Shown here in pieces: positions 4,324 to 21,736 of a stretch of DNA of 64,000 bases. The position numbers and the translations under genes were made by a program. The stretch comes from Geobacteraceae bacterium (GTDB taxonomy: Bacteria > Desulfobacterota > Desulfuromonadia > Geobacterales > Pseudopelobacteraceae), in NCBI GenBank assembly GCA_021286935.1, contig JAJTBI010000004.1, forward strand, positions 1-64,000. The letters run 5' to 3'. Positions within the stretch are counted from its first letter, which is position 1, and each line of letters opens with the position of its first letter. Below the pieces are notes generated by a model. That model did not search any database. It saw only the letters and a list, made by a program, of their open reading frames with translations, and was not told the origin of the DNA.

Positions 4324-4597
4324 GAACGTTCACCTCCACTTGTTTGTAAAAAGGGGTTTTTTATTGCATGGAGTGGTATGGATGTCAATTATTAAGCTAT
4401 GTTGTGAAAAAGACAAAACTAAGCTCCAATCGTTGTAAGTCAGCTCTGTATTCAAAAGAATTGGTATAGTCTGCAGGCGGGGCTTTTTAGTACCTGAATC
4501 TTTGTTTTATGTTATACAGCTTTTTATCCTGATGCGGTTGCCAACAGGCTAAAGATAGGTATACTGACCATCAAGCTACTTTGGGAGTGTTGCCAAC

Positions 4598-4804
4598 ATG
4601 GCGTCTTATGAACAGACATTTCTTGAACAATTAACCAATATCCATGGGGTTGATTTTACAACCTGGCATGGCTGGGAGCAGCTTATGGCCTGGGTCAAGC
4701 GTCAGCCTTGGCGCGAGGAGTTTTATGGCGGCGAAAAAATTCCTGCCCGTCTGCTCTATCCTCAAACACTGTGTGAAGAACTTAGCCGCTATCTTGGGGG
4801 GTAG
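4598..4804 (+). CDS. small hypothetical protein, 68 residues
   Basis: The frame starts at ATG 4598 behind a GGGAGTG site. It encodes a short, aromatic-rich protein (four Trp, several Tyr and Phe) with no signal peptide or membrane segment. I do not recognise a family. It ends 56 bases before the bacteriohemerythrin gene and is probably transcribed with it. The 274 bases upstream, to ettA, are AT-rich and must hold the divergent promoters. Coding is supported by the ribosome site and position; function is unknown. Confidence 0.6.
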   Translation: MASYEQTFLEQLTNIHGVDFTTWHGWEQLMAWVKRQPWREEFYGGEKIPARLLYPQTLCEELSRYLGG

Positions 4805-4860
4805 TACATTACTATGCTTATCCTCTGGACATTATACTGTTGAAGGAGCCAACAGCAGCT

Positions 4861-5268
4861 ATGGCGCTCATCGAATGGAATCAGTCGCTCAGTGTCGCTA
4901 TCAAGCAGTTTGATGATCAGCACCAGCAGCTTGTAGCCATGGTCAATCAACTGCATCAGGCGATAAAAGAGGGGCAGGGGGCTGATACGCTTCATCTCAT
5001 TCTGGCAGGCCTTGTGCAGTATACGCAAAGTCATTTTGCGGCTGAAGAGGCCTTGATGGAACAGTATGACTATCCTGATTACCCCCGGCATAAACAGGCG
5101 CATGTTGATCTGGTGCGACAGGTTGAAGATATCAGTGCTCAGCTTGAAAATGGCAACAGATTGCAACCGGTCAGTGTCATGCAGTTTCTGGTTAACTGGC
5201 TGACCAACCATATCAAGGGTGAAGATAAAAGGTATACCGTGTTTTTCCAAAGCAAAGGGGTTGTTTAA
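4861..5268 (+). CDS. bacteriohemerythrin
   Basis: This 135-residue four-helix protein has the full set of di-iron ligands: His in FDDQHQQ, HxxxE in SHFAAEE, HxxxH in RHKQAH and HxxxxD in NHIKGED. The family binds O2 reversibly and serves for oxygen storage, delivery or sensing in anaerobes and microaerophiles. ATG 4861 (MALIEWN) is chosen over an upstream TTG because GAAGGAG precedes it and family proteins start at this residue. It lies between a small unknown gene and an EF-hand protein. Confidence 0.93.
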   Translation: MALIEWNQSLSVAIKQFDDQHQQLVAMVNQLHQAIKEGQGADTLHLILAGLVQYTQSHFAAEEALMEQYDYPDYPRHKQAHVDLVRQVEDISAQLENGNRLQPVSVMQFLVNWLTNHIKGEDKRYTVFFQSKGVV

Positions 5269-5302
5269 AGCAGTTTAATTGATGCTTGAAGGGATACTGA
5301 GA

Positions 5303-5644
5303 ATGAAACAGCTGGTGCGTAATATGGTAGTGGCGATGATGTTGATGATTCCGGTGGCCGTCTTCGCAGCTGAAGACAAAATTTTTACAACGCTTGATGC
5401 TGACAAAAACGGCGCTATTAGCAAAGATGAACTGCTCAAAAGTAATCTGGCGGTAGTAAAAGGACCCAAAGGGAAACTGAAGGTTGTGCATCGGGATATG
5501 CTGAAAGATGGATCTGCTGCAGCCATGACCGAAGAACAGAAAAAACGTCTGTTTGATCAACTTGATACCGATAAAAACGGACAAATCAGCAGAAAGGAAT
5601 GGAGCCGTGCTTCACGTGATGGCTTTATCCTCTTGAAGTTTTAA
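5303..5644 (+). CDS. secreted EF-hand calcium-binding protein
   Basis: The 113-residue protein has a signal peptide (Lys-Arg start, hydrophobic core, cleavage after VFAA). Two canonical EF-hand loops follow: DADKNGAISKDE and DTDKNGQISRKE, each with Asp/Asn ligands at positions 1, 3, 5 and Glu at 12. It should bind Ca2+ in the periplasm or outside the cell. ATG 5303 is preferred over earlier in-frame starts because the signal peptide begins there and GAAGGGA lies upstream. It is 34 bases after bacteriohemerythrin, perhaps in the same transcript. Partner unknown. Confidence 0.85.
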   Translation: MKQLVRNMVVAMMLMIPVAVFAAEDKIFTTLDADKNGAISKDELLKSNLAVVKGPKGKLKVVHRDMLKDGSAAAMTEEQKKRLFDQLDTDKNGQISRKEWSRASRDGFILLKF

Positions 5645-5678
5645 TTCGCACTACCACAGAGCAGGGAGGGGGGAGTCT

Positions 5679-6014
5679 ATGCAGATAACCGTCACCAAGC
5701 TGGATGAAGTACTTGTTGCCGCTCTGGTCGGCAGGATGGACGCCATGACAACGGTTGAGTTTGACCGTTGGTTCTCAGAACAGCTGGCCACTGGTGAGAC
5801 CTGTCTTGTCCTTGATCTGCAGGGGCTTGAGTATATCAGTAGTGCCGGTCTGCGTTCCCTGCTTGCTGCTGCAAAACAGATCAAGGCGAAAAATGGTTCA
5901 TTGCTGCTCTGTCAGTTGGTGGGGACTGTTGAAGAGGTTTTCAGAATATCCGGTTTTCTGGCTATTTTCAAAACATTCGGGTCCGTTGACGAGGCCCTGA
6001 AGAGCCTGGGCTGA
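5679..6014 (+). CDS. STAS-domain anti-sigma factor antagonist (SpoIIAA/RsbV family)
   Basis: The 111-residue single-domain protein has the signature DLQGLEYISSAGLRSLL, keeping the Ser that partner kinases phosphorylate and SpoIIE-type phosphatases restore. The domain is full length. It is close in sequence to the STAS protein at 26235-26573. It is the first gene before the MFS/PaaK/LuxE/LuxC cluster (gap 83 bases) and so may regulate that cluster by partner switching; an RsbW-like domain ends the cluster at 15464. A GCAGGGAGG site precedes the ATG. Confidence 0.9.
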   Translation: MQITVTKLDEVLVAALVGRMDAMTTVEFDRWFSEQLATGETCLVLDLQGLEYISSAGLRSLLAAAKQIKAKNGSLLLCQLVGTVEEVFRISGFLAIFKTFGSVDEALKSLG

Positions 6015-6097
6015 CCTGCTGGAGACATCCGGTGCCTCTTTCGTTCCGGAACTTGAGCGTGTTGCAGATCCGGAGTGAGTCTGAGTGAGGAGATCTG

Positions 6098-7297
6098 ATG
6101 TTTACCTTCCTGCGGGAGAACAGGAATTTCAGAAACTTCTGGTTTGGCCAGGTAATCTCACAGATTGGTGACAGAATTCACACCCTTGCCGTTATCTGGC
6201 TGGTGTACACCTGGACAAAGTCAGGCACCTCCCTGGGGCTGGTGCTCATTGCGGCAACCCTTCCGTCTGTATTGATCTCCCCTTGGGCAGGGGCACTTTC
6301 AGACCGGCTGAACCGGAAACATATCGCCATTGGCTGTGATCTGATCCGCAGTCTGCTGGTGATTATCCTGGCGGTGCTGGCCCACGGCAAGCTGTTGAAC
6401 ATGCCGCTCATTGTGGTCATGACAGCGCTCATCTCAATTGCCTCAGCCTTTTTCAATCCGGCAACCCTTGCCATGCTGCCATCCATTGTTTCATCGCAGG
6501 ACCTGGGGCGAGCCAACGCCATTACCCAGCTCTCAGCCAATGCCAGCGGGGCCCTGGGATTTCTACTGGGCAGCGGTTTGATTGCCGCTATTGGTGTCCC
6601 CTCAGCCTTCCTCTTTAACGGCATTTCATTCTGTGTCTCTGCCCTGCTTATCAAAACAATCAGCTATCAGCACAGCCCGTCTCCGAAGAGCCTCTCATTT
6701 GTTGCGGACCTGAAGGAAGGCTGGCAGGTGGTGCAGAGTATTTCTGTGGTCTCGCGGATTATCGGACCACTCATTGTCGTGAACTTCCTGTTTTCCTCTC
6801 TTTCCGTCTTGATCCCGATTTTTGGCGAAGGGGTATTCAAATCCGGATCAGCAGGTGTTGGCCTGCTCCTGGCCAGTTACACCTGCGGGATGTTCCTGGC
6901 AGCACTGGTACTCAGTACCGTGCAGCTTAAGACAACCATCTCACGGCTGGTTACCTCAAGCCTGCTGCTGGTTGGCGGAAGTTTTCTGGCAATGGGCTGT
7001 ATTGAGCGTCTCCCGCTTTTTGTTGTTGCCCTGATCCTGATCGGCTTTGCCTTGAATGGCGCCAATATCTGTCTGATTACCATGTTTCAGCGGGTGATAC
7101 CGGGGGAGGTCAGGGGTAAGTTTTTCAGCATGCTGACGGCTGTTTCCCTGTCGGCACAACCACTGGCCTTTGGGGTAACCGGCTGGTTTGCCGATCTGGT
7201 TAATCCGGCCGGAATTCTGCTGTTCTGCGGGATCACCCTGCTGGGGTGTGCCCTGTTTATCTATCGGATTGCCGAGTTGCGCGAGCAGTCTGTGTAA
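6098..7297 (+). CDS. MFS transporter (12-helix, EntS/MFS_3-like exporter)
   Basis: The 399-residue protein has about 12 hydrophobic helices and the MFS loop motif after helix 2 (GALSDRLNRKH). Its N-terminus (NRNFRNFWFGQVISQIGDRI) is typical of the group that includes enterobactin and macrolide exporters. A role in exporting a product of the adjacent acyl-activating enzymes is inferred from position only: the next gene starts 10 bases later. GAGGAG precedes ATG 6098. The substrate cannot be predicted. Confidence 0.85.
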   Translation: MFTFLRENRNFRNFWFGQVISQIGDRIHTLAVIWLVYTWTKSGTSLGLVLIAATLPSVLISPWAGALSDRLNRKHIAIGCDLIRSLLVIILAVLAHGKLLNMPLIVVMTALISIASAFFNPATLAMLPSIVSSQDLGRANAITQLSANASGALGFLLGSGLIAAIGVPSAFLFNGISFCVSALLIKTISYQHSPSPKSLSFVADLKEGWQVVQSISVVSRIIGPLIVVNFLFSSLSVLIPIFGEGVFKSGSAGVGLLLASYTCGMFLAALVLSTVQLKTTISRLVTSSLLLVGGSFLAMGCIERLPLFVVALILIGFALNGANICLITMFQRVIPGEVRGKFFSMLTAVSLSAQPLAFGVTGWFADLVNPAGILLFCGITLLGCALFIYRIAELREQSV

Positions 7298-7306
7298 GGA
7301 GGTTTC

Positions 7307-8671
7307 ATGGATTCTGTTGCGTCATTTTCCAGACAGGTCATAGAGCGGGTTCCCGGCTATGCTCGTTTCCTTGCTGCCCATGGCGTTTCTAGCAACGCCC
7401 CGTTTGAGGCATTACCGCTGCAGACCAAACAAAACTACCTGCTGGAATACCCCATTGAAGAACTCTGTTGGGATGGCAGCCTGCATGACTGTCACCTGAT
7501 CGGCTCCAGTTCCGGTTTCAGTAAATCCGGCTCAGTCTTCTGGCCCAAACGTCCTCAGGATGAGGCGCAGTATCTGGAGACACTGGAGCAGATGCTGACG
7601 ATCAACTACGGCATTAACCGTAAACGGACCCTGATCATCTGCTGCATGGCGCTGGGTACCTGGTTTGCCGGTGTCACTATAACCTCAGCCTTTCGGGTAA
7701 TCGCGGCAAGCGGACGCCTGCCGATCACGGTCTGCACACCCGGACTGAACCTGGCTGAGGCGGTTGAGATCTATGCCCGCTTCTACACCAACTTTGAACA
7801 GACCCTCTGGATCACCAATCCCTCCAACATCGGCCTGATTTCCGCCCTGCTCAGCAGAAAAGAGTTGGATGTGCCACCTGGCTCCTGCTTTTTTCCGGTG
7901 ATCGGCGAATATTTCAGCGAGTCCTTCCGTGAGGCCCAGGCAGTGCGTTACCAACATGACCCTGATGCTCCCTTTGTGGTCTGGACCGGCTATGGTTCCG
8001 CAGATACCGGTGATATCGGTGCAGAAACCGCTGCCACAATCCGTTTGAGAAAATTCATCCATGCAGACAGCGCACAACGGCAGCAGCTGTTCGGCTCGGA
8101 TGATACACCGATGCTGTTGGCAACCAATCCCAAGGCGCGGATAGAGATTCTGGACGGGCAGATTGTGGTCACCAAAGACCAGTTGGTGCCGCTGGTGCGC
8201 TACAACACCGGTGATGAAGGTGGATTGCTGCACAAGGCAGATCTGGCGCAAAAGTTGTCACTGCCAGCCAGGCTGCTGGCCGAGTTGCCGGAAACAATCC
8301 TGTTTGTGCGGGGCAGGGCCTCAAACGCCATCATCTTTTACGGCACCAACCTGAATGTGCAGGATATCAACCAGCATTTCCTCGGCTTGCCTCGGGAGAT
8401 GCGTTATTCCGGCCTGTTTACGGTCCGTCGGGCCACCCAGGGGGAGGTCACGCTGTTTCAGTTCACCGTGCTGGTGGAAGGTGCGGTTGATCCGGCCTTG
8501 ACAGAGCGTTACCACGCCTCACTGTTGCAGTACCTGCGGGGGCAGAGCCTTGAGTTTGAGGCCAAGTACGCCAATCTGACCCGCTCCATTGGTGAAGACC
8601 TGATCAAACTCAGGCTGGAAGAGCTGACAGCCACCACCGGCACCATCAAGCACCGCTACATCATTGACTAA
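7307..8671 (+). CDS. PaaK-like adenylate-forming enzyme (divergent acyl-CoA ligase/acyl-AMP family)
   Basis: The 454-residue protein belongs to the phenylacetate-CoA ligase/coenzyme F390 synthetase superfamily. The P-loop-like segment SSSGFSKSGS (about residues 64-73) is altered from the usual SSGTTGxPK, the A5-like motif appears as WTGYGSADTGD, and VRYNTGDEG carries the A7-like Asp. Such enzymes adenylate a carboxylate and pass the acyl group to a thiol. Missing P-loop Thr/Gly/Lys residues make ligase activity uncertain. AAGGAGGT precedes the ATG; the next ligase gene starts 15 bases after the stop. Confidence 0.75.
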   Translation: MDSVASFSRQVIERVPGYARFLAAHGVSSNAPFEALPLQTKQNYLLEYPIEELCWDGSLHDCHLIGSSSGFSKSGSVFWPKRPQDEAQYLETLEQMLTINYGINRKRTLIICCMALGTWFAGVTITSAFRVIAASGRLPITVCTPGLNLAEAVEIYARFYTNFEQTLWITNPSNIGLISALLSRKELDVPPGSCFFPVIGEYFSESFREAQAVRYQHDPDAPFVVWTGYGSADTGDIGAETAATIRLRKFIHADSAQRQQLFGSDDTPMLLATNPKARIEILDGQIVVTKDQLVPLVRYNTGDEGGLLHKADLAQKLSLPARLLAELPETILFVRGRASNAIIFYGTNLNVQDINQHFLGLPREMRYSGLFTVRRATQGEVTLFQFTVLVEGAVDPALTERYHASLLQYLRGQSLEFEAKYANLTRSIGEDLIKLRLEELTATTGTIKHRYIID

Positions 8672-8686
8672 ACTCGGGAGTTTACG

Positions 8687-9970
8687 ATGGAATACTTTTC
8701 TGAGGAAAAACAACTGGCCCAGGCGGTGGAGGTCTTCAGGGCCTCGCTTAAATCCAAACTGTACGGAGAAAAATACAGCGGGTTGAGCGTGCCGGACAGC
8801 CTGGAGGCCTGGGAGCGGGTGCCGGTGCTGACCCGTGCCGAGATCCACGAACGTTCGTTCCCGCAGTCAACGGATATGCTGACGCAACCGATTGAAGATG
8901 CCATCATCATCTCAACCGGTGGTTCCAGTGGCATTGCCCGGTACACCGCCTACACCCACCAGGAGTGGGATGCCTTTGTGACCTGTCAGGCCGAAGCCAT
9001 GCGGATACTGGGCATCACCCGCCAGGACCGGGTGGCCAACCTGTTCATCGCCGGTCATTTCTGGCCGTCGTTTCTCGGCCTGCATGATGTTATCAAGAAA
9101 CTGGGGGCGGTGCATCTGCCGATCTCGGCCAATATCCCGATTGAAGAGGTGGTTAAACTCTGCCAGCAGTTTGAACCGACCGTTATGGTCTCACTACCGA
9201 CCCTGTTTGTGTTCATGGCTGATATGGCCAAGCGGGACAACTTCAGTTTCCCGCAGCTGAGGATGATCAACTATGCCGGTGAACACCTCAGTAGCGCTGC
9301 CGAGGCCCACGTGGCTTCAGCACTGGGGGTGCAGCGGATCAAGGCCGGGGCCTACACCAGCGCTGATGTGGGGATCATGGGCTACCAGTGCGATCATGCC
9401 GGTCCCGGTGTCTACCATGTACCGACCGCCTTTCAATATCTGGAACTGATCAATTTTGATGAAGGACGCAGGGCCGGGATTGGCGAGCAGGGCGAGGTGG
9501 TGGTCACCAACCTGAGCCGGGTCTCAACCCCGATTATCCGCTACCGGGTCGGCGATGTTGCCACCTGGACCGGAGAAACCTGCCCTTGCGGTGATCCGAA
9601 CCCGCTGATCAAGCTGGGTGGCCGGGCCGGTCAGGACTTCAAGCTGGGTGGCGGTTTCATCTCGCTGGACCTGTTTGAAACCTGCATTGCCCGTCACAGC
9701 GACCAGTTGAGCCTCAACTTCCAGCTGGAGATAGAGGATGTGGCCCATCAGTTCAAGGTCATTCTGCGGGTTGAGGCCCCTGGGCAGGTTGCTGCCGCAG
9801 TCCTGGCCAGCCTGGAAAATGAGCTGTTTGAGGCGGTGCCAGAGCTGAGGATTTCCACTGAAAAGGGCTATCTGCAGTCATTCAGGATTGAACCGGTGCC
9901 ACTGGGGCAACTGCCGCGCAGTCCGATTACCGGCAAGGTGGCGCGTCTGCTGGATAAAAGGGTTTTGTAA
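8687..9970 (+). CDS. PaaK-like adenylate-forming enzyme (acyl-CoA ligase/F390-synthetase type)
   Basis: This 427-residue member of the PaaK superfamily has P-loop-like STGGSSGIARY (about 72-82), helix motif NYAGEHLS, core motif YTSADVGIMGYQC, IIRYRVGDV and the Cys pair of the TCPCGD segment, then GGRAGQDFKLGG. It closely resembles the C-terminal half of the LuxC fusion at 12802, sharing AGNMWASF/AGHFWPSF-type and GYQC segments. Probable reaction: ATP-dependent activation of an unidentified carboxylic acid. The stop codon lies inside a short fragment resembling the 33.4-kb repeat. Confidence 0.78.
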   Translation: MEYFSEEKQLAQAVEVFRASLKSKLYGEKYSGLSVPDSLEAWERVPVLTRAEIHERSFPQSTDMLTQPIEDAIIISTGGSSGIARYTAYTHQEWDAFVTCQAEAMRILGITRQDRVANLFIAGHFWPSFLGLHDVIKKLGAVHLPISANIPIEEVVKLCQQFEPTVMVSLPTLFVFMADMAKRDNFSFPQLRMINYAGEHLSSAAEAHVASALGVQRIKAGAYTSADVGIMGYQCDHAGPGVYHVPTAFQYLELINFDEGRRAGIGEQGEVVVTNLSRVSTPIIRYRVGDVATWTGETCPCGDPNPLIKLGGRAGQDFKLGGGFISLDLFETCIARHSDQLSLNFQLEIEDVAHQFKVILRVEAPGQVAAAVLASLENELFEAVPELRISTEKGYLQSFRIEPVPLGQLPRSPITGKVARLLDKRVL

Positions 9971-10003
9971 AAACTATTGCGGAGGCCTTCCTCATAACGT
10001 TTC
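9966..10003. repeat. short remnant similar to the 33.35-33.50 kb repeat
   Basis: Sequence after the ligase stop reads AAAAACTATTGCGGAGGCC then TTCCTCATAACG. The repeat at 33353-33495 contains nearly the same two blocks (AAAAACTACTGCGGAGCCC and TTCCTCATAACG) separated by about 85 bases. This copy looks like an internally deleted relic. No gene lies between here and the luxE-like start at 10044. Confidence 0.5.
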
Positions 10004-10043
10004 TGATTGTTTGGGGAGTTTAGGGAATTTGTAAGGAGACACC

Positions 10044-11162
10044 ATGACAGAAGAAGCAACAAACCGGCTCTATACGCTTGATCAGGCCTTTGATTTTTCT
10101 GAAGAGTACAAAGGGCTGTTTGTGCAGTCCATGCAGGAGATGGTGCAGTTCCACTGCGAACATTCTCCGGTGTACAACGGTATCTGCCAGCAGTACGGTT
10201 TCTCCAGCGAGCAGATCCGTTGCTATGACGATCTGATCACCATTCCCCATATCTTTGTCACCGCCTTCAAGCAGCACCGGTTGCTGTCGCTGCCTGAGGA
10301 GGAGATCTGCATGACCTTCACCTCTTCCGGTACCCAGGGGCAGAAGAGCCAGATCAACCTGGACCGGATCTCCTTTGAACGGCAGGCCGGGATGCGCAGC
10401 CTGTTGGTACGCTCGCTGGGGCTGGTCAGTGAACAGCTGACCAACTACCTGGTCTTTTCCTATGCGCCGGATATTGCCGACCAGCGCGGTGCTGCCCATA
10501 CCTTCAACGTCTACAGCTCATTTGCCCCGGCAGCGGAAAAGTATTTTGCCCTGCAGCAGGGGACAGGTGGAGAGCCAACCTTTGATCTGGAGCAGGCCAT
10601 CGTAACCCTGGTGCGGTTTGCAGAGACCGGCCTCGCGCTGCGGGTGGTGGGGTTTCTGGCCTTCAGCTTTGTCACCCTGCAGGAGATGAAAAAACGGGGG
10701 ATACGGCTGCAGTTTCCGGCTGAAAGCCTGCTGATTACCGGTGGCGGCTGGAAATCCCACAAGGGTGAGACGGTCAGCTTTGAAGGATATGCCGAGCTGG
10801 TACACGACATACTCGGTATCCAGCCGGAACGGATTCGTGATTTTTACGGCATGGTGGAACATGGGGTGCCCTATATGAGCTGTAGCCACCGCCACTACCA
10901 TGTGCCGATCTTTGCCAACGTGGGGGCGGTTGATCCGGGCACCTTGCAGGCTCTGCCCACAGGAGAGACCGGCCTGTTGAAGCTGCAGACCAGCTACATC
11001 AGAAGCGCACCGGCCATTTCAGTCTTGAGCACCGACCTGGGGGCCATCGGCACCAACTGTCCCTGTGGCATACCGGGCAGCTACATTATGCTGCGCGGCA
11101 GGGCAGGGGTGCAGAAGCATGCAGGTTGTGCGATTTCGGCGTCACAGTTAATCAAGCTTTAG
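10044..11162 (+). CDS. LuxE-like acyl-protein synthetase
   Basis: The 372-residue protein matches the LuxE family in length and order. It has FTSSGTQGQKS (ATP-binding loop, about 93-103), LLITGGGWKSHKG, the RIRDFYGMVEH motif and a C-terminal CPCGIPGSYIMLRGRAG region. Cys362, eleven residues from the end, is where LuxE carries its acyl thioester (Cys364 in the luminous enzymes). LuxE activates a fatty acid to acyl-AMP, loads it on this Cys and hands it to LuxC, which reduces it to aldehyde. A LuxC domain is encoded at 12802, beyond an insert. AAGGAGAC precedes ATG 10044. No luciferase genes are in view. Confidence 0.87.
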   Translation: MTEEATNRLYTLDQAFDFSEEYKGLFVQSMQEMVQFHCEHSPVYNGICQQYGFSSEQIRCYDDLITIPHIFVTAFKQHRLLSLPEEEICMTFTSSGTQGQKSQINLDRISFERQAGMRSLLVRSLGLVSEQLTNYLVFSYAPDIADQRGAAHTFNVYSSFAPAAEKYFALQQGTGGEPTFDLEQAIVTLVRFAETGLALRVVGFLAFSFVTLQEMKKRGIRLQFPAESLLITGGGWKSHKGETVSFEGYAELVHDILGIQPERIRDFYGMVEHGVPYMSCSHRHYHVPIFANVGAVDPGTLQALPTGETGLLKLQTSYIRSAPAISVLSTDLGAIGTNCPCGIPGSYIMLRGRAGVQKHAGCAISASQLIKL

Positions 11163-11275
11163 AAGAGTCTGTTTTAAACCGGCTATCCTCTCGAATTAGC
11201 ATGTTGGCCCGACACTATTGGCAACGAGTCGTAATTACAACAGATAGCTAAAACTTTAAACACAGGAGAAAAATC

Positions 11276-11716
11276 ATGATCAGGATTGTTACCGTAGCAT
11301 TGATGGCATTAGTCTTTATGGCCCCTACCTCCAAAGCAGCAACCATTAACATTAAATATTTAGATGGTACATCGCAAAAGATTAAACTCAATGAACCACC
11401 ATCCCAGATCAGTCAAATTAATATCAGCAATGACGGTTTTTCTGCGTCTAGGGAGGGAGTCATAAGAGTTGTGGCTGGCTCTTATGGACTAAACTGCGGT
11501 ACCTCGCATGGCAACAAGACAGAACACCTGGCTCAGCAGTGCAACGGCAAGAAACGTTGCGAATACAAAATAAACTATCAAGTGATAGGAGACCCAGCGG
11601 TTGGCTGCGGCAAGGAATATGTTGCCGAGTGGCAATGTGGGGATGGCGAGTTGAAATCCACCAAGGCAAATGCTGAGGCTGGATTTGGTTCCGTAATCAC
11701 TCTCTCCTGCCAATGA
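11276..11716 (+). CDS. secreted SUEL/galactose-lectin-like small protein
   Basis: The 146-residue protein starts with a signal peptide (cleavage after SKAA). The C-terminal half has a Cys pattern like the SUEL rhamnose/galactose-binding lectin fold: a YGLNCG start, CNGKKRCEYKI, then GDPAVGCGKEYVAEWQCG, which parallels the DPC-G-xK-L-x-Y-C core. Carbohydrate binding outside the cell is inferred, not shown. The N-terminal 40 mature residues are unassigned. The gene is AT-richer than its neighbours and, with the next genes, separates luxE-like from luxC-like, suggesting a later insertion. CAGGAG precedes the ATG. Confidence 0.65.
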   Translation: MIRIVTVALMALVFMAPTSKAATINIKYLDGTSQKIKLNEPPSQISQINISNDGFSASREGVIRVVAGSYGLNCGTSHGNKTEHLAQQCNGKKRCEYKINYQVIGDPAVGCGKEYVAEWQCGDGELKSTKANAEAGFGSVITLSCQ

Positions 11717-12165
11717 TAATGGAATGGCTGCGGCCCGCCGGTATAGGCCTTGCTATTTTCTGCGCCTATTTTTGGGGGCACGATGCGATCTCGCAATTCC
11801 ATATCATGGGGCCGTTTGTGGTTATGGCCATGTTAGGCACGGTGGCCTTTGAGTCCCTGTTTTTGGGGGATGTGGCTTCCCAAAAGGTCGGCTATGCTCC
11901 AAATCGTGCCTATCAGATTCAATCAGGCCTAGCCAATGCAGCCACTGCGGTGACTGCGCTTATGGTGTATCTGCTGGATTGGGGGCGCTATGCTGATGCC
12001 ACCATTGTTTCTGTAATGCTGATTTTCTTTGCCCTATCGGCTGCCAATCATGTTGTCTCTGCCATCATGGAGCGCAACATGAAGGCGGTTAATCTGTTGC
12101 GACCGGTTATGGCGCTGCTGTTGATTGGATTTTTGCTACCTGCGATGATCAAGGCGTTGCAGTGA
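11713..12165 (+). CDS. small integral membrane protein, four predicted helices
   Basis: The start ATG 11713 overlaps the previous stop (ATGA), so translation is coupled to the lectin-like gene. The 150-residue product has about four hydrophobic segments (10-25, 32-50, 72-105 region, 130-147). It resembles uncharacterised DUF6790-type membrane proteins; that assignment is tentative and no enzymatic residues stand out. It ends 16 bases before the first cloverleaf repeat. Confidence 0.65.
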   Translation: MIMEWLRPAGIGLAIFCAYFWGHDAISQFHIMGPFVVMAMLGTVAFESLFLGDVASQKVGYAPNRAYQIQSGLANAATAVTALMVYLLDWGRYADATIVSVMLIFFALSAANHVVSAIMERNMKAVNLLRPVMALLLIGFLLPAMIKALQ

Positions 12166-12181
12166 AAATGAATAGAACCGT

Positions 12182-12269
12182 ACCACCCCCGGCCCCTCCT
12201 AAGATAGGAGGGGAGAAAACCGGGACGCTTCTAGCCCCCTCCTTGATTAAGGAGGGGGTTGGGGGTGGT
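12182..12269. repeat. cloverleaf-forming palindromic repeat, copy A
   Basis: Outer arms ACCACCCCC (12182-12190) and GGGGGTGGT (12261-12269) enclose two hairpins: CCCCTCCT/AGGAGGGG (12193-12213) and CCCCCTCCTT/AAGGAGGGGG (12235-12258). Folded, this makes a three-way junction. The same architecture with different loop sequences recurs at 12679-12768 and 26587-26666. Copy A lies directly upstream of the DUF559 gene. Confidence 0.9.
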
Positions 12270-12306
12270 TGCCGTTGTTGATCATCAACCGCAAGGATAC
12301 CAGCTC

Positions 12307-12699
12307 ATGTTCCATAACCGATCTGTTTTGAGGTCTCGGCGTAAAGAGCTGCGAAACAATGCAACGCCTGCCGAGAGGATTCTCTGGGGCATACTACAAC
12401 ACAGTAGTCTCGGCGGGTACAAATTCAGGCGGCAACATAGCGTCGGGCCATACATTCTTGATTTCTACTGTCCTGCGGTAAGATTGGCTGTTGAACTGGA
12501 TGGCGATTCACACTTTACTGACGATGCTGTTGTATATGATCAGGAAAGAACTGCATATTTGAATGGCTTGCATATTACGGTTCTCAGGTTTCTGAACACA
12601 GACGTTTTCGAAAATCTCACCATGGTTGGTGAATGTATTTTGGAGAGGATTCAAGGGCACAATGCTGACCTGAACCGTACCACCCCCTGCCCCTCCTAA
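12307..12699 (+). CDS. DUF559 / Vsr-like endonuclease-domain protein
   Basis: The 130-residue protein has the DUF559 hallmarks: RxxxTxAERxLW near the start (NNATPAERILWGIL), KFRRQHSVGPYILDFYCP, and the catalytic-type LAVELDGDSH with a later ERTAYL and VLRF. The fold is related to Vsr-type restriction nucleases (PD-(D/E)xK); substrate and activity are unproven. ATG 12307 follows an AAGGA site and removes a spurious extension that would read through repeat A. Its last codons and stop (TAA 12697-12699) lie inside repeat B, so the gene runs from one repeat into the next. This arrangement suggests a mobile unit. Confidence 0.85.
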   Translation: MFHNRSVLRSRRKELRNNATPAERILWGILQHSSLGGYKFRRQHSVGPYILDFYCPAVRLAVELDGDSHFTDDAVVYDQERTAYLNGLHITVLRFLNTDVFENLTMVGECILERIQGHNADLNRTTPCPS

Positions 12700-12768
12700 A
12701 CTAGGAGGGGAACTGAAAACGGGAATAGAAAAGCCCCCTCTTTGATTAAGGAGGGGGTTGGGGGTGGT
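12679..12768. repeat. cloverleaf-forming palindromic repeat, copy B
   Basis: Outer arms ACCACCCCC (12679-12687) and GGGGGTGGT (12760-12768) enclose hairpins CCCCTCCT/AGGAGGGG (12690-12710) and CCCCCTCTTT/AAGGAGGGGG (12734-12757, one G-T pair). It is in the same orientation as copy A and shares the GAACCGT lead-in. The DUF559 stop codon sits in the loop of its first hairpin. Confidence 0.9.
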
Positions 12769-12801
12769 TGCTTGAGAATTGCTGAATAGAGGGAGAGCAA
12801 C

Positions 12802-15474
12802 ATGGTTACCTGGTACAACTTTGGACAATTTCAGGATGCAGACAGCATCACTCCGGTGATGATGCAGGAAATCATGGCGACTGCCAGCGCAAAGACAGCG
12901 GCGCTACGTGATACGCCGGTGCTGCAGCTGGCAACGATCCTTGATCGGGTGGGGCAGCGTCTGGCAGACCCTCAGGACCCGGTGCGCAGTGAGATCATGG
13001 CGGTTATGCCGGATCTGATCAGCTTTGCCCCAGCCATGATTGAGGCCGGGCTGGGGGCGATCTGCGAGATCCTCCGCTTTGACAGCCTGATCAAGCGGCT
13101 GCAGGTGGATCTTGACCGGGTCGAGTATATTGATGCCTTTACCTGGCATGACGATTTTTGCGGTCTGATGCGGGCCATGCCGCAGGGGGTGGTTGCCCAT
13201 GTCTCGGCCGGTAACGTCTTTGTCAGCGCGGTTGATACCCTGGTGCAGGGGATACTGACCAAGAATGTCAATATCCTCAAGATGTCCTCCTTTGATCCCA
13301 TCTTCCCGCTGATCTTTGCCAAGCTGGTCAAGGAGTGCGATCCCCAGGGCCTGCTGTACCCTTATTTCTGTCTGGTACCGTTCAAGGGGGGTGATCAAGA
13401 GATCGAGCAGATCATCAAGGAGCAGGCCGATGTGGTGATCGTCTATGGCGGTAAAGAGGTGGTTGAGCTGTACCGGCGAGGCCGGGGGCTGCATACCAAA
13501 GAGGTGGAGTACGGCCCCAAATACTCGCTGGTGGTGCTGGATCAGTCTGCCCTTGCCACCGCTGACCTGGATGCGGTGGCGCAGCAGGTTGCCAAGGATT
13601 TTACCATGTGGGAGCAGGCAGCCTGTTCGTCCCCCCATGCTGTTTTTATCCAGGGCGAACAGCAGGCCCGGCGTTTTGCCGGGCACCTGCAGACCGCCTT
13701 TACCGGGCTGGTGCAGGAGTACCCCTTTCCGGTCATCAACCGCGATGAACAGACCGAGATCACCCGTACCCGTGAACTGGCGCGGGTGGAGAGCGCCCTG
13801 GGCACTGCCGAGCTGATCATCCCCGCTGTTGCGGACCAGAGCTGGACCATCATCCTGCAGAAAAACGCCTGCTTCAAGGTCTCCTGCCAGCACCGCACCG
13901 CCTATGTGGTGACCATCCAGAATGATCAGGAACTGTTCGACGCCCTGGCCGAGTACGGCAAGTTCATTCAGTCCGTCGGGCTACTGGCCGACAGCAGGCG
14001 GCTGTTTGAGCTGTCAGACCGCCTGGTGGGGCTGGGGGCGGACCGGATCACGGAGCTGGGCTGGATGCACCGCAGAAAGCACGGCACCCCCCATGATGGC
14101 ACCCGCGGCCTGGCAGAACTGGTGCGCTGGGTCTCCATCGGCCATAACCGGCCGTTCCATGATCCGGTTGATTTCATGGATGCCGCTGCACGGGAGGCGT
14201 TGCAACTGGCCAAGCTGAACCGGGTGCTGGACTGTGCCTACCACAACGCAGACTTTTACCGCGAACGGTTGCCGCAGCCATCACTCGCCAGCCTGGCCGA
14301 CCTGACCAGTATTCCAATTCTGGAGCCGGAACAGTTCCGGGCCCACCTGCCTCCCTATGGCACCGGGCTGCTGACCGCCCCCCTGGGTAACTCCATCTCA
14401 TTCTCCAGCGGCGGCACCACCGGCAAGCCCAAGTTTGTCTACCGCACCATGGAGGAAACCCGGCGTAATGCCCACGGCATTGCCAAGGGGCTGGCCCTGG
14501 GCCTGTTCCAGAAAGGGGATGTGGTGGCCAACCTGTTCTATGCCGGTAATATGTGGGCCTCCTTCATCAGCATGAACATGGCGCTGGAAGAGATCGGCAC
14601 CCATATCCTGCCGATCGGCGGCCATATCCCGCTGGAGAATATCATCTCGTTTTTACGGGCCTTCAAGGCCGATGGCGCGGTTTCCATCCCCTCGGTACTG
14701 GTGGGGATTGCCCAGTATGTGGAGAAACATCAGATCACCGACCTGACCATCAGGAAGATCGGCTACGGTGGTGAACATATGCCGGCTGCCACCCGGCAGT
14801 ATGTGGCTGATGTGCTGAAGGCCGAGGTGATCTGCTCTGCCTCCTATGCCATCAACGATACCGGTGTGGCCGGTTACCAGTGCCCGTACTGCGAAGGCTC
14901 GGTGCACCATATCAACGAAGACCTGCACATCCTGGAGGTGGTTGATCCGGAGACCCATGTGGTGTTGCCGCCCGGTCAGGAGGGCAACCTGATCCTGACC
15001 AACATCGACCGGACCCTGATGCCGGTTATCCGCTACAATGTCGGTGACCGTGGCAGGCTGATCGAGGGAGACTGTCCCTGCGGCAGAACCGCCCGCAGAT
15101 TCGAACTGCTGGGGCGCTCCGACGAGGTGGTGGTGATCGGTGCCGACAATGTCTCCATTGATGCCATTGCCGGGTGTGTGGCCCAGGTAGAAGGGCTCAG
15201 CCAATATTTTACCCTGTTCGGCAAGAGCGCGGCAGGTCAGGACCTGCTTGAGATTCAGGTGGAGTCGCTGGAGCCGCAGGATGCGGCAGCACAGGCTGCG
15301 CTGGCTGAACAACTGGTGGTTGCGATCCTGCAGGAAAAACCGGTGATGGCGTCAAACCTTGCCACCGGTATTATTGCGCGGCCAGTGGTGCTGGTGCTGC
15401 CGCCGGGCGGGCTGCCCCGCAATCCCCGCACCGGCAAGATCAAACGGGTTATTGAGGAACGCCATGCAGGATAG
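12802..15474 (+). CDS. LuxC-type acyl reductase fused to a PaaK-like adenylate-forming domain
   Basis: This 890-residue protein is a two-enzyme fusion. Residues about 1-450 are LuxC-like (acyl-CoA reductase family), with HVSAGNVFVSAVD (nucleotide-binding region) and active-site Cys275 in EQAACSSPHAVF. Residues about 460-890 are a PaaK/LuxE-like ligase with P-loop SFSSGGTTGKPK (533-544), KIGYGGEHMP, ASYAINDTGVAGYQC, PVIRYNVGDRG and GDCPCGR. The ligase could adenylate an acid and present it in cis to the reductase, giving an aldehyde. GGGAGAGCA precedes the ATG; the next gene overlaps its end by 11 bases. The LuxE partner lies 1.6 kb upstream, beyond inserted genes. Confidence 0.88.
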   Translation: MVTWYNFGQFQDADSITPVMMQEIMATASAKTAALRDTPVLQLATILDRVGQRLADPQDPVRSEIMAVMPDLISFAPAMIEAGLGAICEILRFDSLIKRLQVDLDRVEYIDAFTWHDDFCGLMRAMPQGVVAHVSAGNVFVSAVDTLVQGILTKNVNILKMSSFDPIFPLIFAKLVKECDPQGLLYPYFCLVPFKGGDQEIEQIIKEQADVVIVYGGKEVVELYRRGRGLHTKEVEYGPKYSLVVLDQSALATADLDAVAQQVAKDFTMWEQAACSSPHAVFIQGEQQARRFAGHLQTAFTGLVQEYPFPVINRDEQTEITRTRELARVESALGTAELIIPAVADQSWTIILQKNACFKVSCQHRTAYVVTIQNDQELFDALAEYGKFIQSVGLLADSRRLFELSDRLVGLGADRITELGWMHRRKHGTPHDGTRGLAELVRWVSIGHNRPFHDPVDFMDAAAREALQLAKLNRVLDCAYHNADFYRERLPQPSLASLADLTSIPILEPEQFRAHLPPYGTGLLTAPLGNSISFSSGGTTGKPKFVYRTMEETRRNAHGIAKGLALGLFQKGDVVANLFYAGNMWASFISMNMALEEIGTHILPIGGHIPLENIISFLRAFKADGAVSIPSVLVGIAQYVEKHQITDLTIRKIGYGGEHMPAATRQYVADVLKAEVICSASYAINDTGVAGYQCPYCEGSVHHINEDLHILEVVDPETHVVLPPGQEGNLILTNIDRTLMPVIRYNVGDRGRLIEGDCPCGRTARRFELLGRSDEVVVIGADNVSIDAIAGCVAQVEGLSQYFTLFGKSAAGQDLLEIQVESLEPQDAAAQAALAEQLVVAILQEKPVMASNLATGIIARPVVLVLPPGGLPRNPRTGKIKRVIEERHAG

Positions 15475-16954
15475 ACCGAACTTTCGATTAGGTAGGGTAG
15501 CCGCAACCACAGTGCCGGCCAGCACGGCCTCGCTCTGGCCGGTGCAGGCCTGGGTGAGCGGTTTTGCCCGCTGTTTCGGGCTGGCAGACGAGGAGATCCG
15601 CCGTCTGGAGCTGGTGGTGGAAGAGGCCTTGATGAGCGTGCTGCACACCTCCTTTGACGGCGGTGAGTCCGGTGACGTGACAGTACAGCTTGACTATCGG
15701 CCCGGGCAGTTCGTGATCGCCATAGAGGACAAGGGGTTGCCCCTTGATCTGGCCTATCTGGAGGCCAATGAGGCGATCTCCCTGAACCTGACCCTGATCC
15801 GTCAACTGGTGGATGAGCTGGTGTTTGTCAACAAGGGCAAGGAAGGGAAGCGGCTGGAACTGATCACACTGCTGCCTGCTGAAAACGTTGCCGCAGCCAT
15901 GGATGAACAGCAGCAAGACGCCGCAGACCGGGCCGAGCAGGAAGGCTTTGACGAAACAGATATCAGCTTCCGCATGCTGCGGGCCGATGAAACCCTGGCT
16001 CTGGCGCAACTGGCCTACCGTAGTTACGGCTACACCTATGTCAGTGACTTCTACTTTCCGGAACGGATTCGGGAGCGGGTTGAGCTGGGGCTGATGGAAA
16101 CCTGCGTGGCCCTGATGCCGGATAACCGGATTGTGGGAGCCTTAAGCCTGTTCTATGACAGCCCGGACGCCAGGGTGGCGGAAAGCGGCGCGGCTATGGT
16201 GGACCCCCGTTGCCGCGGCAAGAGTCTGTTCAAGGAGATGAAGCAGTTTCTGTTTGCCTATGGCCGCCAAAAAGGGCTGTACGGCATCTACAGCGAGGCG
16301 GTCACCATTCATCCCTACACCCAGCAGGGCAATCTGTCGCTGGGGGCCCATGAGACAGGCATGCTGCTCTCCTATGTCTCAGAAAATGTCGCCTTTAAAA
16401 AGATCGGCTCAGAACTGATGGGACAACGGCAATCCCTGATCCTGTTCTATGCCCGCCTGAACCCTGAACCGGCCCGTACGGTCTATGCCCCTGCACGCTA
16501 TGCCGACCTGCTGCGCCAGGTGTACCAGGAAAACGGGCTGAACCGCGAACTGCTGATCAGCGATCAGTACGCTACGAACCTGGGGCAGGATACCCAGCTT
16601 GAGATACAGGTGCGCCACGATGCCTTTAATGATGCCATCATTGACCTGCAGCGGATCGGCAGCGATGCCGATGCCATTATCCTGCAGCACACCCGTGAGC
16701 TGTGTGAGAAAAAGGTAGAGGCGATCTACCTGAATCTGGAACTGTCAGATCCTGCTGCGGCCTGTCTGGCCGGTCGGCTGGCTGAACGGGGCTACCTGTT
16801 TGCCGGGGTCATCCCGGAACTGCGCAATGGTGACCTGCTTAAGCTGCAATACCTGAACAACGTGGTCTTTGATCCAGCACGGGTAACCGCAGTATCGCCA
16901 GTAGCCCAGACCCTGCTTGCCTTTATCACCAACCAGTACCACCAGCGTCCCTGA
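15464..16954 (+). CDS. degenerate RsbW-like ATPase domain fused to a GNAT-like domain
   Basis: This is a 496-residue protein. Residues about 15-140 resemble anti-sigma kinases (ELVVEEALMSVLH, IEDKGLPLDL, LTLIRQLVDEL). The Mg-binding Asn of the N box is Ser58 and the Gly-rich lid is missing, so kinase activity is doubtful. A polar linker (about 145-165) leads to a GNAT-like region (about 168-340: SYGYTYVSDFYFPERIRE, ALSLFYDS, DPRCRGKSLFKEMKQF) and a further C-terminal region. The C-terminal part is homologous to the protein at 32043-33101. ATG 15464 overlaps the fusion gene's end. A regulated acyl- or acetyltransferase role is inferred. Confidence 0.75.
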   Translation: MQDRPNFRLGRVAATTVPASTASLWPVQAWVSGFARCFGLADEEIRRLELVVEEALMSVLHTSFDGGESGDVTVQLDYRPGQFVIAIEDKGLPLDLAYLEANEAISLNLTLIRQLVDELVFVNKGKEGKRLELITLLPAENVAAAMDEQQQDAADRAEQEGFDETDISFRMLRADETLALAQLAYRSYGYTYVSDFYFPERIRERVELGLMETCVALMPDNRIVGALSLFYDSPDARVAESGAAMVDPRCRGKSLFKEMKQFLFAYGRQKGLYGIYSEAVTIHPYTQQGNLSLGAHETGMLLSYVSENVAFKKIGSELMGQRQSLILFYARLNPEPARTVYAPARYADLLRQVYQENGLNRELLISDQYATNLGQDTQLEIQVRHDAFNDAIIDLQRIGSDADAIILQHTRELCEKKVEAIYLNLELSDPAAACLAGRLAERGYLFAGVIPELRNGDLLKLQYLNNVVFDPARVTAVSPVAQTLLAFITNQYHQRP

Positions 16955-16962: not shown

Positions 16963-19251
16963 ATGCAATCCACACGTCCCCTGACCATCGGAACCTCTGC
17001 TCCCCGCGGCGATGCTGCTGCCAAGGCAGCCGGCACAGAACCGTACGCCGCAGACCGCTATCCTGCCGACTGCCTCTGGGCCGGGGCGGTGCGCTCCAAC
17101 CTGCCTGCCGGACGGATCATCGCCATAGACACCACTGCTGCTGCGGCACTGCCCGGTGTGGTCAAGGTGCTGACTGCGGCAGATGTTGTTGGCAGCAACC
17201 GCCAGGGGATTATTCACAAGGATATGCCGGTGCTGTGCGACCAACAGGTGCGCTACAGCGGTGACCCACTGGCCCTGGTGCTGGCAGAAGACCGCAGCAT
17301 CCTGCAGCAGGCGGTGAAGCTGGTCAGGTTTGAACTGGAACCACTAGTCGGTCTCTTTGATCTGGACAGCGCCCTGGCCCCGGATGCGCCGCTGATCCAT
17401 GAAGGCCAGCCAGGTAACCTGCTGGCCCAGGCCAGCATCTGCAAAGGCACGGGCCTGGATGGCTTTAGCGACTGTGATGTTGTGGTGGAGGGTAGCTTCA
17501 GCACCCCGGTGCAGGCCCATGCCTTTCTTGAGACAGAAAGCGGGGTGGCTCGCCTGGAAGAGGATGGCGGCCTGCTGCTGGAGGTCTCCACCCAATCACC
17601 CTTTCGTGACCGCTTTGAGATCAGCCATGCCCTGGGCATCCCCTGGGGCAAGATCCGTATTGTGGCACCTTCACTGGGGGGCGGTTTTGGCGGTAAGGAC
17701 GGCGCTACCGTACAGTGCCTGCTGGGGCTGGCAGCCCAACATGCCAATGGCCGCTGGGTACGGATGCAGTGGGATCGTGAAGAAAGCTTTAAGGCCGGCT
17801 ACAAACGCCATGCCTGCAAAATGGAATACAGGCTGGGGGCCAGCGCAGATGGAACCCTGCAGGCGCTGCACGCCAGGCTCTGGTACGATACCGGCGCCTA
17901 TGCCCACCTGGGTGCCGAGGTGATGGAATTGGGCATGGAGCATGCCGGTGGTCCCTACCGCATTCCTCATACCCAGATAGATGGCTGGTGCGTCTACACC
18001 AACAACCCAACCGCTGGTGCCATGCGGGCCTTTGGAGTCTGTCAGGCCACCTTTGGTTTTGAATCCATGATGGACCTGCTGGCTGCCAAGCTGGGCATGG
18101 ACCCGCTGGAACTACGCCTGAAAAACGCCCTGGTGCGGGGAGATGAAAACTGTGCCGGTATGCGGCTTACCAGTTCCACCGGCATCAAGACCTGTCTGGA
18201 ACAGCTGCAGCAGCACCCCTTCTGGCAGCAACAGGAGCAGTGGAAGGCAGCAGCGCCCCGCTTCAAACAGCGCGGCATTGGTCTGGCAGCGGTCTTTAAT
18301 GCAGCCGGCTATGGCGGCGGGGTGCGGGATGCTGCCACTGCCAAGATCGAACTGACTGCTGACGGTAGTTTTGTGGTGCACAATGCCGTGGCAGACATGG
18401 GCCAGGGCAACTCGGCAGCCTTTCAGCAGATAGCCGGACATATTTTATCGCAGGATGCAGCGCGGATTACGCTTAAACAGCCGGATACCCGCACTGCCTA
18501 TCCCTCTGGCTCATCCTCTGCCGGGCGCACCACCTACACCTTTGGTAAGGCCCTGATCACTGCAACTGAAGAGTTGCGCAGCCGCCTGCTTAATATGGCC
18601 GGTATGGTTCTGTTTCTGCAAGGTAATGACGGTCTGGAGCTGCAGCCGGGCAAGGTGGTGCATCCACCCAGCAATAAAGAGATTACACTGGCACAGCTTG
18701 CCGGGTATATGCAGCCTGAAGAACGGGTCTGTCTGGGCCAGTACGTGGCCCCCACCTGCAAGGATATTCCCCCCACTGCCAAAGGGTTCTTTATCGGTTT
18801 TCCCCATGTCATTTTCGGCTATGGCGCCCATCTGGTGCGGCTTGAGGTGGATAGCCTGACCGGCCAGCTCACCCTTTGTGATTATTTGGCTGTGACTGAT
18901 GGCGGCAGGGTGCTGAACCCAATGATGTTTGATCAGCAGGTGCAGGGTGGGGTGGCCCAAGGTCTGGGCTATGCCTTGATGGAGGATTTTACGGTGCAGA
19001 ATGGCGTGGTAAAAACCCCTGACTTTGCCACCTACCTGATCCCCGGCAGCCTTGATGTTCCGGAGATCATCTCTATTCCTGCCCAGGGAGAACCGGAAGA
19101 AACCGGACCCTTTGGCATGAAGGGGATTGGCGAGGTGGCCATGAACGGCCCTTTGCCTGCGGTTGCCAATGCTGTGGCTGATGCCTGCGGTGTGCGGCTT
19201 TGCCACGGACCGCTCACACCGCAGCGGGTGTTGGTGGGGCAAACGGGATAA
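16963..19251 (+). CDS. molybdenum hydroxylase large (Mo-binding) subunit, xanthine dehydrogenase family
   Basis: This 762-residue protein has the a/b hammerhead domain (about 15-120) and the Mo-pterin-binding domains. Motifs include SLGGGFGGKDG, TGAYAHLG, AMRAFGVCQ, DMGQGNSAAFQQIA, and the C-terminal GMKGIGEVAMN whose Glu is the base in this family. It should hydroxylate a heteroaromatic or aldehyde substrate with electrons passing to the FeS and FAD subunits encoded downstream. Xanthine specificity cannot be claimed. The start ATG is 8 bases after the previous stop. The expected next gene (FeS subunit) is 1.6 kb away because of an insertion. Confidence 0.9.
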   Translation: MQSTRPLTIGTSAPRGDAAAKAAGTEPYAADRYPADCLWAGAVRSNLPAGRIIAIDTTAAAALPGVVKVLTAADVVGSNRQGIIHKDMPVLCDQQVRYSGDPLALVLAEDRSILQQAVKLVRFELEPLVGLFDLDSALAPDAPLIHEGQPGNLLAQASICKGTGLDGFSDCDVVVEGSFSTPVQAHAFLETESGVARLEEDGGLLLEVSTQSPFRDRFEISHALGIPWGKIRIVAPSLGGGFGGKDGATVQCLLGLAAQHANGRWVRMQWDREESFKAGYKRHACKMEYRLGASADGTLQALHARLWYDTGAYAHLGAEVMELGMEHAGGPYRIPHTQIDGWCVYTNNPTAGAMRAFGVCQATFGFESMMDLLAAKLGMDPLELRLKNALVRGDENCAGMRLTSSTGIKTCLEQLQQHPFWQQQEQWKAAAPRFKQRGIGLAAVFNAAGYGGGVRDAATAKIELTADGSFVVHNAVADMGQGNSAAFQQIAGHILSQDAARITLKQPDTRTAYPSGSSSAGRTTYTFGKALITATEELRSRLLNMAGMVLFLQGNDGLELQPGKVVHPPSNKEITLAQLAGYMQPEERVCLGQYVAPTCKDIPPTAKGFFIGFPHVIFGYGAHLVRLEVDSLTGQLTLCDYLAVTDGGRVLNPMMFDQQVQGGVAQGLGYALMEDFTVQNGVVKTPDFATYLIPGSLDVPEIISIPAQGEPEETGPFGMKGIGEVAMNGPLPAVANAVADACGVRLCHGPLTPQRVLVGQTG

Positions 19252-19271
19252 ATGTTCCATTTGGGAAGATC

Positions 19272-19303
19272 ACCAGTTCACGCGCGTGCGCGCGTGAACT
19301 GGT
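19272..19303. repeat. 32-base near-perfect hairpin after the Mo-subunit gene
   Basis: Arms of 15 bases (ACCAGTTCACGCGCG and its complement) flank a 2-base centre. There is no T-run, so a simple terminator is unlikely. It lies 9 bases before the GTTGGGC core site that begins the integron-like cassette. It could be half of an older recombination site or an operon element at the insertion point; no upstream RYYYAAC box was found to make it a full attC. Confidence 0.6.
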
Positions 19304-19341
19304 CAATAACGAGTTGGGCGTCATAACAGGAGCGTCTAGAA

Positions 19342-20085
19342 ATGGCCGGAGTACTAATAACTCGGGGGATCACGCCCGCAATTCCCGCCGGCGGACTTAC
19401 TGCCTCACTTGACGCTGAGGGAAGGCAGACTCTCAGCTGCATACTTTACGTGAATTTTGACGTCGTGCCAACCTGGATTTCGCTCGCCCTTCTTCACCTC
19501 AAAAATGCAGCGGAAGCACGCAGCAATCGTAACCAAGCGCAGATTGAGAACATCAATATTGATCTTGGGGTCGCGCTTGAGCGCGAGTTCGAGGCTTCAA
19601 TGCAGGCCGTCATGGCGGCTGCCATTGCGATTGACTCTTTTTATGCCGTACTAAAAAATCACGTCAAACTGCCTGCCGAACTTACGACCGAATGGCGAGA
19701 AAAACGGACGGCAAGACACGCTCAAGTTACCGAGGTAATAAAACGAGCCTTTGCTCTAAAGCCACAAGGAGTCCGTTTCCTAAAGCAGAATCTCAAAGAA
19801 CTCTATAAAATGCGAGATCAAGCAGTTCACCCGCCGAGCAAGTTCGAAGCTCCAGTATTGCATCCGGAATTGAACGTGGGCGTTGAATGGCGGTTTGTAT
19901 ATTTTTGTGCCACTAACGCCGAACTCGCTGTGAATGCGATGACTGGAATATTCTGGGATCTTGCACATTCAAGAAATCCAGCGAATTCGAGAGTCATCGA
20001 GTACATGGATAGCCTTCGTCTTCGATTGCAGGAACTTATGCCGAAGGGTCATCCAACGAAGCCCGTCGCCGAGAATAACCAATGA
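19342..20085 (+). CDS. cassette-borne hypothetical protein with HEPN-like RX4H motif
   Basis: The 247-residue soluble protein is mostly helical. I recognise no family over its length. The segment LYKMRDQAVHPPSKF holds R158-x4-H163, the spacing of the catalytic motif of HEPN ribonucleases, followed by Pro as is common in such helices; an upstream helix (IAIDSFYAVLKN) would fit the paired HEPN helix. This is a motif-level inference only. Codon use is less GC-rich than the flanking subunit genes. The ATG follows AGGAGCG. HEPN proteins are frequent in defence and toxin systems, and integron cassettes often carry such genes. Confidence 0.6.
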   Translation: MAGVLITRGITPAIPAGGLTASLDAEGRQTLSCILYVNFDVVPTWISLALLHLKNAAEARSNRNQAQIENINIDLGVALEREFEASMQAVMAAAIAIDSFYAVLKNHVKLPAELTTEWREKRTARHAQVTEVIKRAFALKPQGVRFLKQNLKELYKMRDQAVHPPSKFEAPVLHPELNVGVEWRFVYFCATNAELAVNAMTGIFWDLAHSRNPANSRVIEYMDSLRLRLQELMPKGHPTKPVAENNQ

Positions 20086-20153
20086 TGAGAACCGGAGTGG
20101 TCAGTCCTTGACACGAGACAAAAGTAAAAAGACAGAAAGCTAAAAAGGCTAAG

Positions 20154-20226: not shown

Positions 20227-20238
20227 AGGTAAAGCAAT

Positions 20239-21311: not shown

Positions 21312-21312
21312 A

Positions 21313-21730: not shown

Positions 21731-21736
21731 ATTTTA

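Follow-up and report, generated by a model that had tools for sequence, protein, structure and literature searches.

The Geobacteraceae genome examined here carries a real, conserved and probably regulated biosynthetic module, built around homologues of LuxC and LuxE, that probably activates a carboxylic acid, reduces it to a reactive aldehyde and exports the result. Light is not the likely output; a protease inhibitor resembling leupeptin is the most plausible one. We tentatively interpret the locus as a compact NRPS-free cluster for an exported aldehyde small molecule, gated by a partner switch, whose product would most likely be an N-acylated amino-acid or short-peptide aldehyde acting as leupeptin does, and we give this complete reading somewhat less than an even chance.

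Gene organization of the locus

The window is the whole 64,000-nucleotide stretch of DNA that was analyzed. Its list of open reading frames, assigned to families with Pfam and NCBIfam models, places genes in the order MFS, PaaK1, PaaK2, LuxE, LuxC-PaaK fusion and RsbW-like-ATPase/GNAT fusion within positions 6098–16954, all on the forward strand. The first encodes an MFS_3 or EntS-like exporter (6098–7297; MFS_3, 1.3e-33), followed by the divergent ANL-fold ligase PaaK1 (7307–8671), the PaaK-like adenylating ligase PaaK2 (8687–9970; AMP-binding, 4.9e-11) and the LuxE acyl-protein synthetase (10044–11162; PF04443, 2.8e-44; LuxE of PDB entry 7xc6, 5e-43). The LuxC-PaaK fusion (12802–15474) matches PF05893 (1.3e-77), 7xc6 LuxC (3.8e-57) and 4r1l (1.5e-58), and its stop is overlapped by the ATPase-GNAT gene (15464–16954; HATPase_c_2, 2.2e-13; GNAT, 1.1e-4), which starts with the ATG at 15464. 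These assignments bear out the sequence-only reading, which had described a cluster of LuxE, a LuxC domain, two more PaaK-like ligases, an MFS protein and an ATPase-GNAT fusion. The STAS-domain antagonist that it included (RsbV-like; STAS, 4.1e-20, and ant_ant_sig, 2.8e-21, above the cut-off) is also present, at 5679–6014 on the same strand, directly upstream of the MFS gene and just outside the 6098–16954 interval. Probes for LuxC and LuxE give one match each in the whole genome, both at this locus.

Two sets of adjacent genes were considered as members of the unit and rejected. Three genes at 11276–12699 (forward strand) encode a weakly SUEL-lectin-like protein, a DUF6790 membrane protein and a DUF559 protein. 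Two genomes of the same genus (G002 and G013) carry MFS, PaaK1, PaaK2, LuxE, LuxC-PaaK and ATPase-GNAT in the identical order at 64–87% identity, and the three genes are missing from both (loci L033 and L034); the GC content of the stretch is 0.486, compared with 0.54–0.60 in the core genes. Because they are absent from the sister genomes and lower in GC, we read these genes as a lineage-specific insertion; at locus L085 only a DUF559 gene occupies the position. The xanthine-dehydrogenase genes downstream (16963 on) likewise do not accompany the cluster in either G002 or G013.

Several other features of the window were noted. Directly downstream of the cluster, xanthine-dehydrogenase-like genes are accompanied by XdhC- and MobA-like genes (16963–25406). 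A ketoacyl-ACP-synthase-III-like and a 3-hydroxyacyl-CoA-dehydrogenase-like gene run in opposite directions with overlapping ORF ends (26693–28609), and two adjacent, related minus-strand genes (121–1659) encode proteins of ~250 aa that are putatively PilZ-type as judged by eye. An ATPase-GNAT relative (30567–31841), a stand-alone relative of the GNAT region (32043–33101) and a benzoate-CoA-ligase-like gene (33510–35015) form a group; neither of the two GNAT relatives is recognized by a Pfam or NCBIfam model of its own, but both match ATPase-GNAT relatives by tblastn.

Distribution of the gene set

A search with LuxE over 395 genomes of the phylum gave strong matches, through which the set was located in further families. 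The gene order, which had been proposed as one to look for in Desulfuromonadota, is found there in G002 and G013, and locus L069 has the set as ATPase-GNAT, MFS, PaaK1, PaaK2, LuxE, LuxC-PaaK, but the set is not specific to that group and crosses many phyla. It recurs in other phyla at 26–60% identity and is therefore a gene set beyond chance association. The six-gene form is seen in Bacteroidota, Acidobacteriota, Pseudomonadota and Desulfuromonadales, and other orders also occur, as in L072 (LuxE, LuxC-PaaK, PaaK, ATPase-GNAT, STAS, RsbW, RsbU). A scan of one genome per species returned 268 relatives of the LuxC-PaaK fusion, the best 80 of which come from Bacteroidota, Bacillota, Acidobacteriota, Pseudomonadota, Synergistota, Elusimicrobiota, Armatimonadota, Riflebacteria and others. 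A tree of 80 fusions has 25 changes of phylum label against a minimum possible of 15, which likely reflects inter-phylum transfer, with the caveat that wrongly binned contigs could add to the label changes.

Neighborhoods were mapped by HMM for the 46 loci whose flanks extend 4 kb or more on both sides. LuxE is present in 45 of these and GNAT in 44, an exporter in 25, partner-switch genes in 17, and PaaK1 together with PaaK2 in 15. The minimal core is GNAT, LuxE and the LuxC-PaaK fusion, and the window holds the largest form. Loss of LuxC or LuxE from the neighborhood in relatives had been named beforehand as evidence against the system, and both genes are retained. Genes for a carrier protein, a ketosynthase or a thioesterase are not among the neighbors conserved across the loci.

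Smaller forms of the set are also found on plasmids. Those of Streptomyces sp. NBC_00158 and Streptantibioticus cattleyicolor encode PaaK, MFS, GNAT, LuxE and LuxC-PaaK, and a Salmonella enterica plasmid (L165, 9581–15743) encodes LuxE, LuxC-PaaK, PaaK and a GNAT. In this last copy the GNAT is broken into two reading frames and little more than a short piece resembling a transporter is left, so that it appears to be decaying; transposase-like ORFs follow the cluster. When plasmids were searched by tblastn with the whole fusion at 1e-60 only S. cattleyicolor matched, and LuxE is the better plasmid probe. We found no match to the cluster in viral contigs, and none to the Salmonella-type cluster in E. 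coli.

LuxE and LuxC genes were observed in several further settings. A 4'-phosphopantetheinyl transferase-like gene is directly upstream of PaaK1 in two Paludibacteraceae loci (L093, 4375–4941; L117, 4301–4933), and in L160 an NRPS gene with condensation and adenylation domains (3742–6867) lies downstream of the LuxC-PaaK fusion, after an AlbA_2-domain gene; the transferase of L093 and this NRPS are isolated natural-product genes that accord with a biosynthetic role. A Streptomyces europaeiscabiei plasmid (L167, 3019–11477) has LuxE and a PaaK-less LuxC beside YcaO-like and DUF692 (multinuclear iron) genes, a setting that resembles RiPP clusters and in which the pair may act on a peptide. A Rhizobium beringeri plasmid (L171, 6926–9227) presents a different setting, perhaps lipid or glycan related, with the LuxE/LuxC pair near acyltransferase, AMP-binding, FabZ, SDR and GMC oxidoreductase genes.

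Probable acid reduction by LuxE and LuxC

The residues of the LuxE-to-LuxC thioester relay are invariant, and the pair has the cysteines that define the LuxC/LuxE acid reductase superfamily. Cys362 of LuxE corresponds to the C-terminal Cys in the LuxE structure 7xc6 and is conserved in 59/59 relatives, and Cys275 of LuxC, the active-site residue in the 7xc6 alignment, is conserved in 77/77, so that the retention of both residues reported for this one sequence extends to its relatives. ATP- and NAD(P)H-dependent formation of an aldehyde would be expected of such a pair.

Among the closest known counterparts is the LuxC-LuxE pair that reduces fatty acids in luminous bacteria (PDB 7xc6), whose homologous proteins carry the same relay cysteines. 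The window set differs in being without luxD, luxA and luxB, in the fusion of LuxC to a PaaK domain, and in the addition of further PaaK-like ligases, a GNAT, an exporter and a partner switch. The genome assembly, at 93% completeness, contains no match to Bac_luciferase (PF00296); the absence of luxAB noted earlier thus applies to the assembly as a whole, and on this ground we reject bioluminescence. LuxE scores 128.6 of 550 bits and LuxC 125.6 of 750 bits, neither reaching its curated equivalog cut-off. Because luciferase is absent and both scores fall short of these cut-offs, we do not regard the locus as a lux system.

A route to fatty aldehyde or alcohol like that of luminous bacteria, with a lipid, wax or volatile as product and the MFS protein moving lipid, is suggested by the homology of the LuxE and LuxC domains to the luminous fatty-acid reductase and by a weak similarity of the MFS protein to LplT and Aas-fused MFS models. 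We consider it unlikely: in addition to the low equivalog scores, no lipid-modifying gene is among the conserved neighbors, and this route leaves unexplained both the extra ligases and a GNAT that is present in 44/46 loci. Protein acylation, in which LuxE and the ligases would load acyl groups onto a protein for signalling or the envelope and LuxC would merely discharge them, accords with the mechanism of LuxE as an acyl-protein synthetase. This is highly improbable, however: the set does not include a gene for a conserved acceptor protein, the exporters suggest that a small molecule is made, and the invariance of the LuxC reductase cysteine argues that reduction is the end point. Among the outputs proposed in the sequence-only reading, acid reduction by LuxC and LuxE coupled with an exporter is thus upheld, whereas fatty aldehyde, alcohol and protein acylation do not best fit the near-constant GNAT.

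PaaK-like ligases and the probable exporter

The adenylation Lys is invariant in PaaK2 (Lys417, 24/24) and in the fused PaaK domain (Lys879, 76/76), and each has the P-loop and C-terminal catalytic Lys that characterize PaaK/ANL ligases. Both match the natural-product PaaK-like ligases BagE/FevW and AjiA1 and the DVU_1553-type ligases, with the catalytic Lys kept, although all scores are far under the curated cut-offs and PaaK2 also scores under those of PaaK models; moreover, one ligase here is fused to LuxC and is accompanied by the divergent PaaK1. PaaK1 has no sequence match in Pfam, NCBIfam or PDB. Its predicted structure is PaaK-like (pTM 0.85; TM 0.62 to 4r1l and 0.58 to GH3.12), and its P-loop is altered (SSSGFSK-G). 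TGK is absent, but a Lys-His pair lies close by near the C-terminus; the motifs are conserved in 22/22 sequences.

The MFS protein matches the EntS model at 1e-29, under its cut-off, and is the probable product exporter. An exporter is present in 14/15 loci bearing PaaK1 and in 25/46 of all loci with good flanks, and in Paludibacteraceae and some Bacteroidales a MATE transporter takes the place of MFS, a substitution that would be expected if the role is export.

The ATPase-GNAT fusion and its probable partner switch

The RsbW-like domain of the fusion matches RsbW 6m36 (4.1e-15). The structural model of the whole protein has a pTM of 0.83, and its GNAT region corresponds to GNAT folds by Foldseek; only generic folds are recovered, the best matches being SpeG and RimJ types. 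The N-box Asn involved in Mg-ATP binding is Ser in the window protein and is kept in only 7 of ~30 aligned members. STAS, RsbW or RsbU genes accompany 16/26 ATPase-GNAT loci and 0/18 loci that have only the other GNAT family (Fisher p = 1.5e-5, counting loci as independent and ignoring shared descent). The STAS and ATPase domains belong to a partner-switching module found repeatedly alongside the ATPase-GNAT version of the set. STAS genes recur beside the set in relatives, and a STAS antagonist and SpoIIE-type phosphatase are encoded together with an RsbW-like protein in, for example, L072, L087, L104 and L109; the window STAS protein is likely a member of such a switch.

In the window the STAS gene adjoins the cluster and a SpoIIE phosphatase is 25 kb away, forming a pair (41422–44356, forward strand) with an NMT1/THI5-like binding protein; the phosphatase is RsbU-like, with Cache-HAMP-SpoIIE architecture (NMT1, 2.7e-36; SpoIIE, 2.8e-52). 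In both G002 and G013 a SpoIIE-type phosphatase is immediately upstream of MFS, and in G013/L087 a homologue of the window pair holds this position. A 3 Mb genome has only some six SpoIIE genes, which makes chance an unlikely source of such adjacency, and we regard the pair as a candidate relocated cognate sensor of the cluster.

As in RsbU-RsbV-RsbW switching, STAS, RsbW-like and SpoIIE-phosphatase proteins are encoded together, but the RsbW-like domain here is fused to GNAT and, in most members, lacks the N-box Asn. Sigma factor genes are not among the conserved neighbors of the loci. The simplest reading is that the fused ATPase domain would serve as a docking site for STAS and no longer as a kinase, and that the stand-alone RsbW present in some loci keeps the kinase role.

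Pat-type control of AMP-forming ligases is known, and the GNAT could similarly acetylate and switch off the AMP-forming ligases of the cluster, in which case the product could be an aryl or fatty aldehyde and GNAT would have no bearing on its identity. GNAT-family proteins also adjoin AMP-forming ligases at 30567–35015, and one G012 cluster has an additional FadD-like ligase. Against this, GNAT is retained as consistently as the catalytic genes, down to the minimal loci of three genes. Two distinct GNAT families occupy the position, an arrangement at least equally compatible with a step in the pathway; we judge ligase regulation to be quite unlikely. The near-constancy of GNAT is more readily explained by N-acylation than by synthesis of a fatty aldehyde.

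Proposed pathway and comparison with leupeptin

Since GNAT is a near-constant partner, and several adenylating ligases and an exporter accompany it, we favor an exported, probably N-acylated aldehyde. In the pathway that we propose, the GNAT domain would acylate an amine, and PaaK2, the fused PaaK domain and PaaK1 would convert acids to acyl-AMP and couple these to an amine or to CoA; the adenylation motifs of PaaK2 and the fused domain support the activation, and the joining reaction is conjectural. LuxE would then adenylate the finished acid, load it onto Cys362 and hand it to Cys275 of LuxC, which would reduce the bound acid to an aldehyde with NAD(P)H, as the conserved residues and the Photobacterium LuxC/LuxE complex suggest, and the MFS pump would export it. 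The STAS, RsbW-like and RsbU-like partner switch may act through the degenerate ATPase domain on GNAT, consistent with their genetic association, and would thereby tie production to an external signal. Against this pathway, LuxE and the fused PaaK are the sole ligase domains of the minimal form, often with no adjacent exporter, and GNAT domains can also acetylate proteins.

Leupeptin biosynthesis (leupABCD of Klebsiella and Photorhabdus) provides a close parallel, drawn at the level of published chemistry, in combining N-acylation, NRPS-independent ligation and ATP/NAD(P)H-dependent reduction to an aldehyde. Leucine is acetylated, leupeptin acid is synthesized independently of NRPS, and a leupeptin acid reductase then acts on this peptide acid using NADH and ATP (PMC7714073), the same cofactor inputs as for LuxE and LuxC. 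A transporter adjoins the leup operon (PMC8283571). The operon has four genes, and no partner switch is reported in the leup literature examined, both points of difference from the window set. One paper describes Streptomyces leupeptin as NRPS-made (PMC10548850), which counts against leupeptin as a model. That the product is specifically an amino or peptide aldehyde is possible, and we hold to it only tentatively.

Discussion

In the open-access literature searched, LuxC/LuxE genes turned up only in lux and flagellar-glycan contexts, and we found no description of this gene set there, an absence that, limited to open-access text, is weak evidence; the conserved unit is to this extent in keeping with the suggestion of an undescribed system. 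A more ambitious and rather doubtful proposition is that these loci define a class of NRPS-independent aldehyde natural products that is shared across phyla and has not been described before. In this class, a pseudokinase-like anti-sigma domain fused to the acyltransferase would let a partner-switching relay gate a biosynthetic enzyme directly and not a sigma factor.

If so, LuxC/LuxE homologues annotated as bioluminescence genes in gut Bacteroidales, Streptomyces and plasmids would mark neglected exported electrophilic metabolites, possibly protease inhibitors, for which the LuxC-PaaK fusion is an easy handle in genome mining, and partner switching would gain an enzyme as an output.
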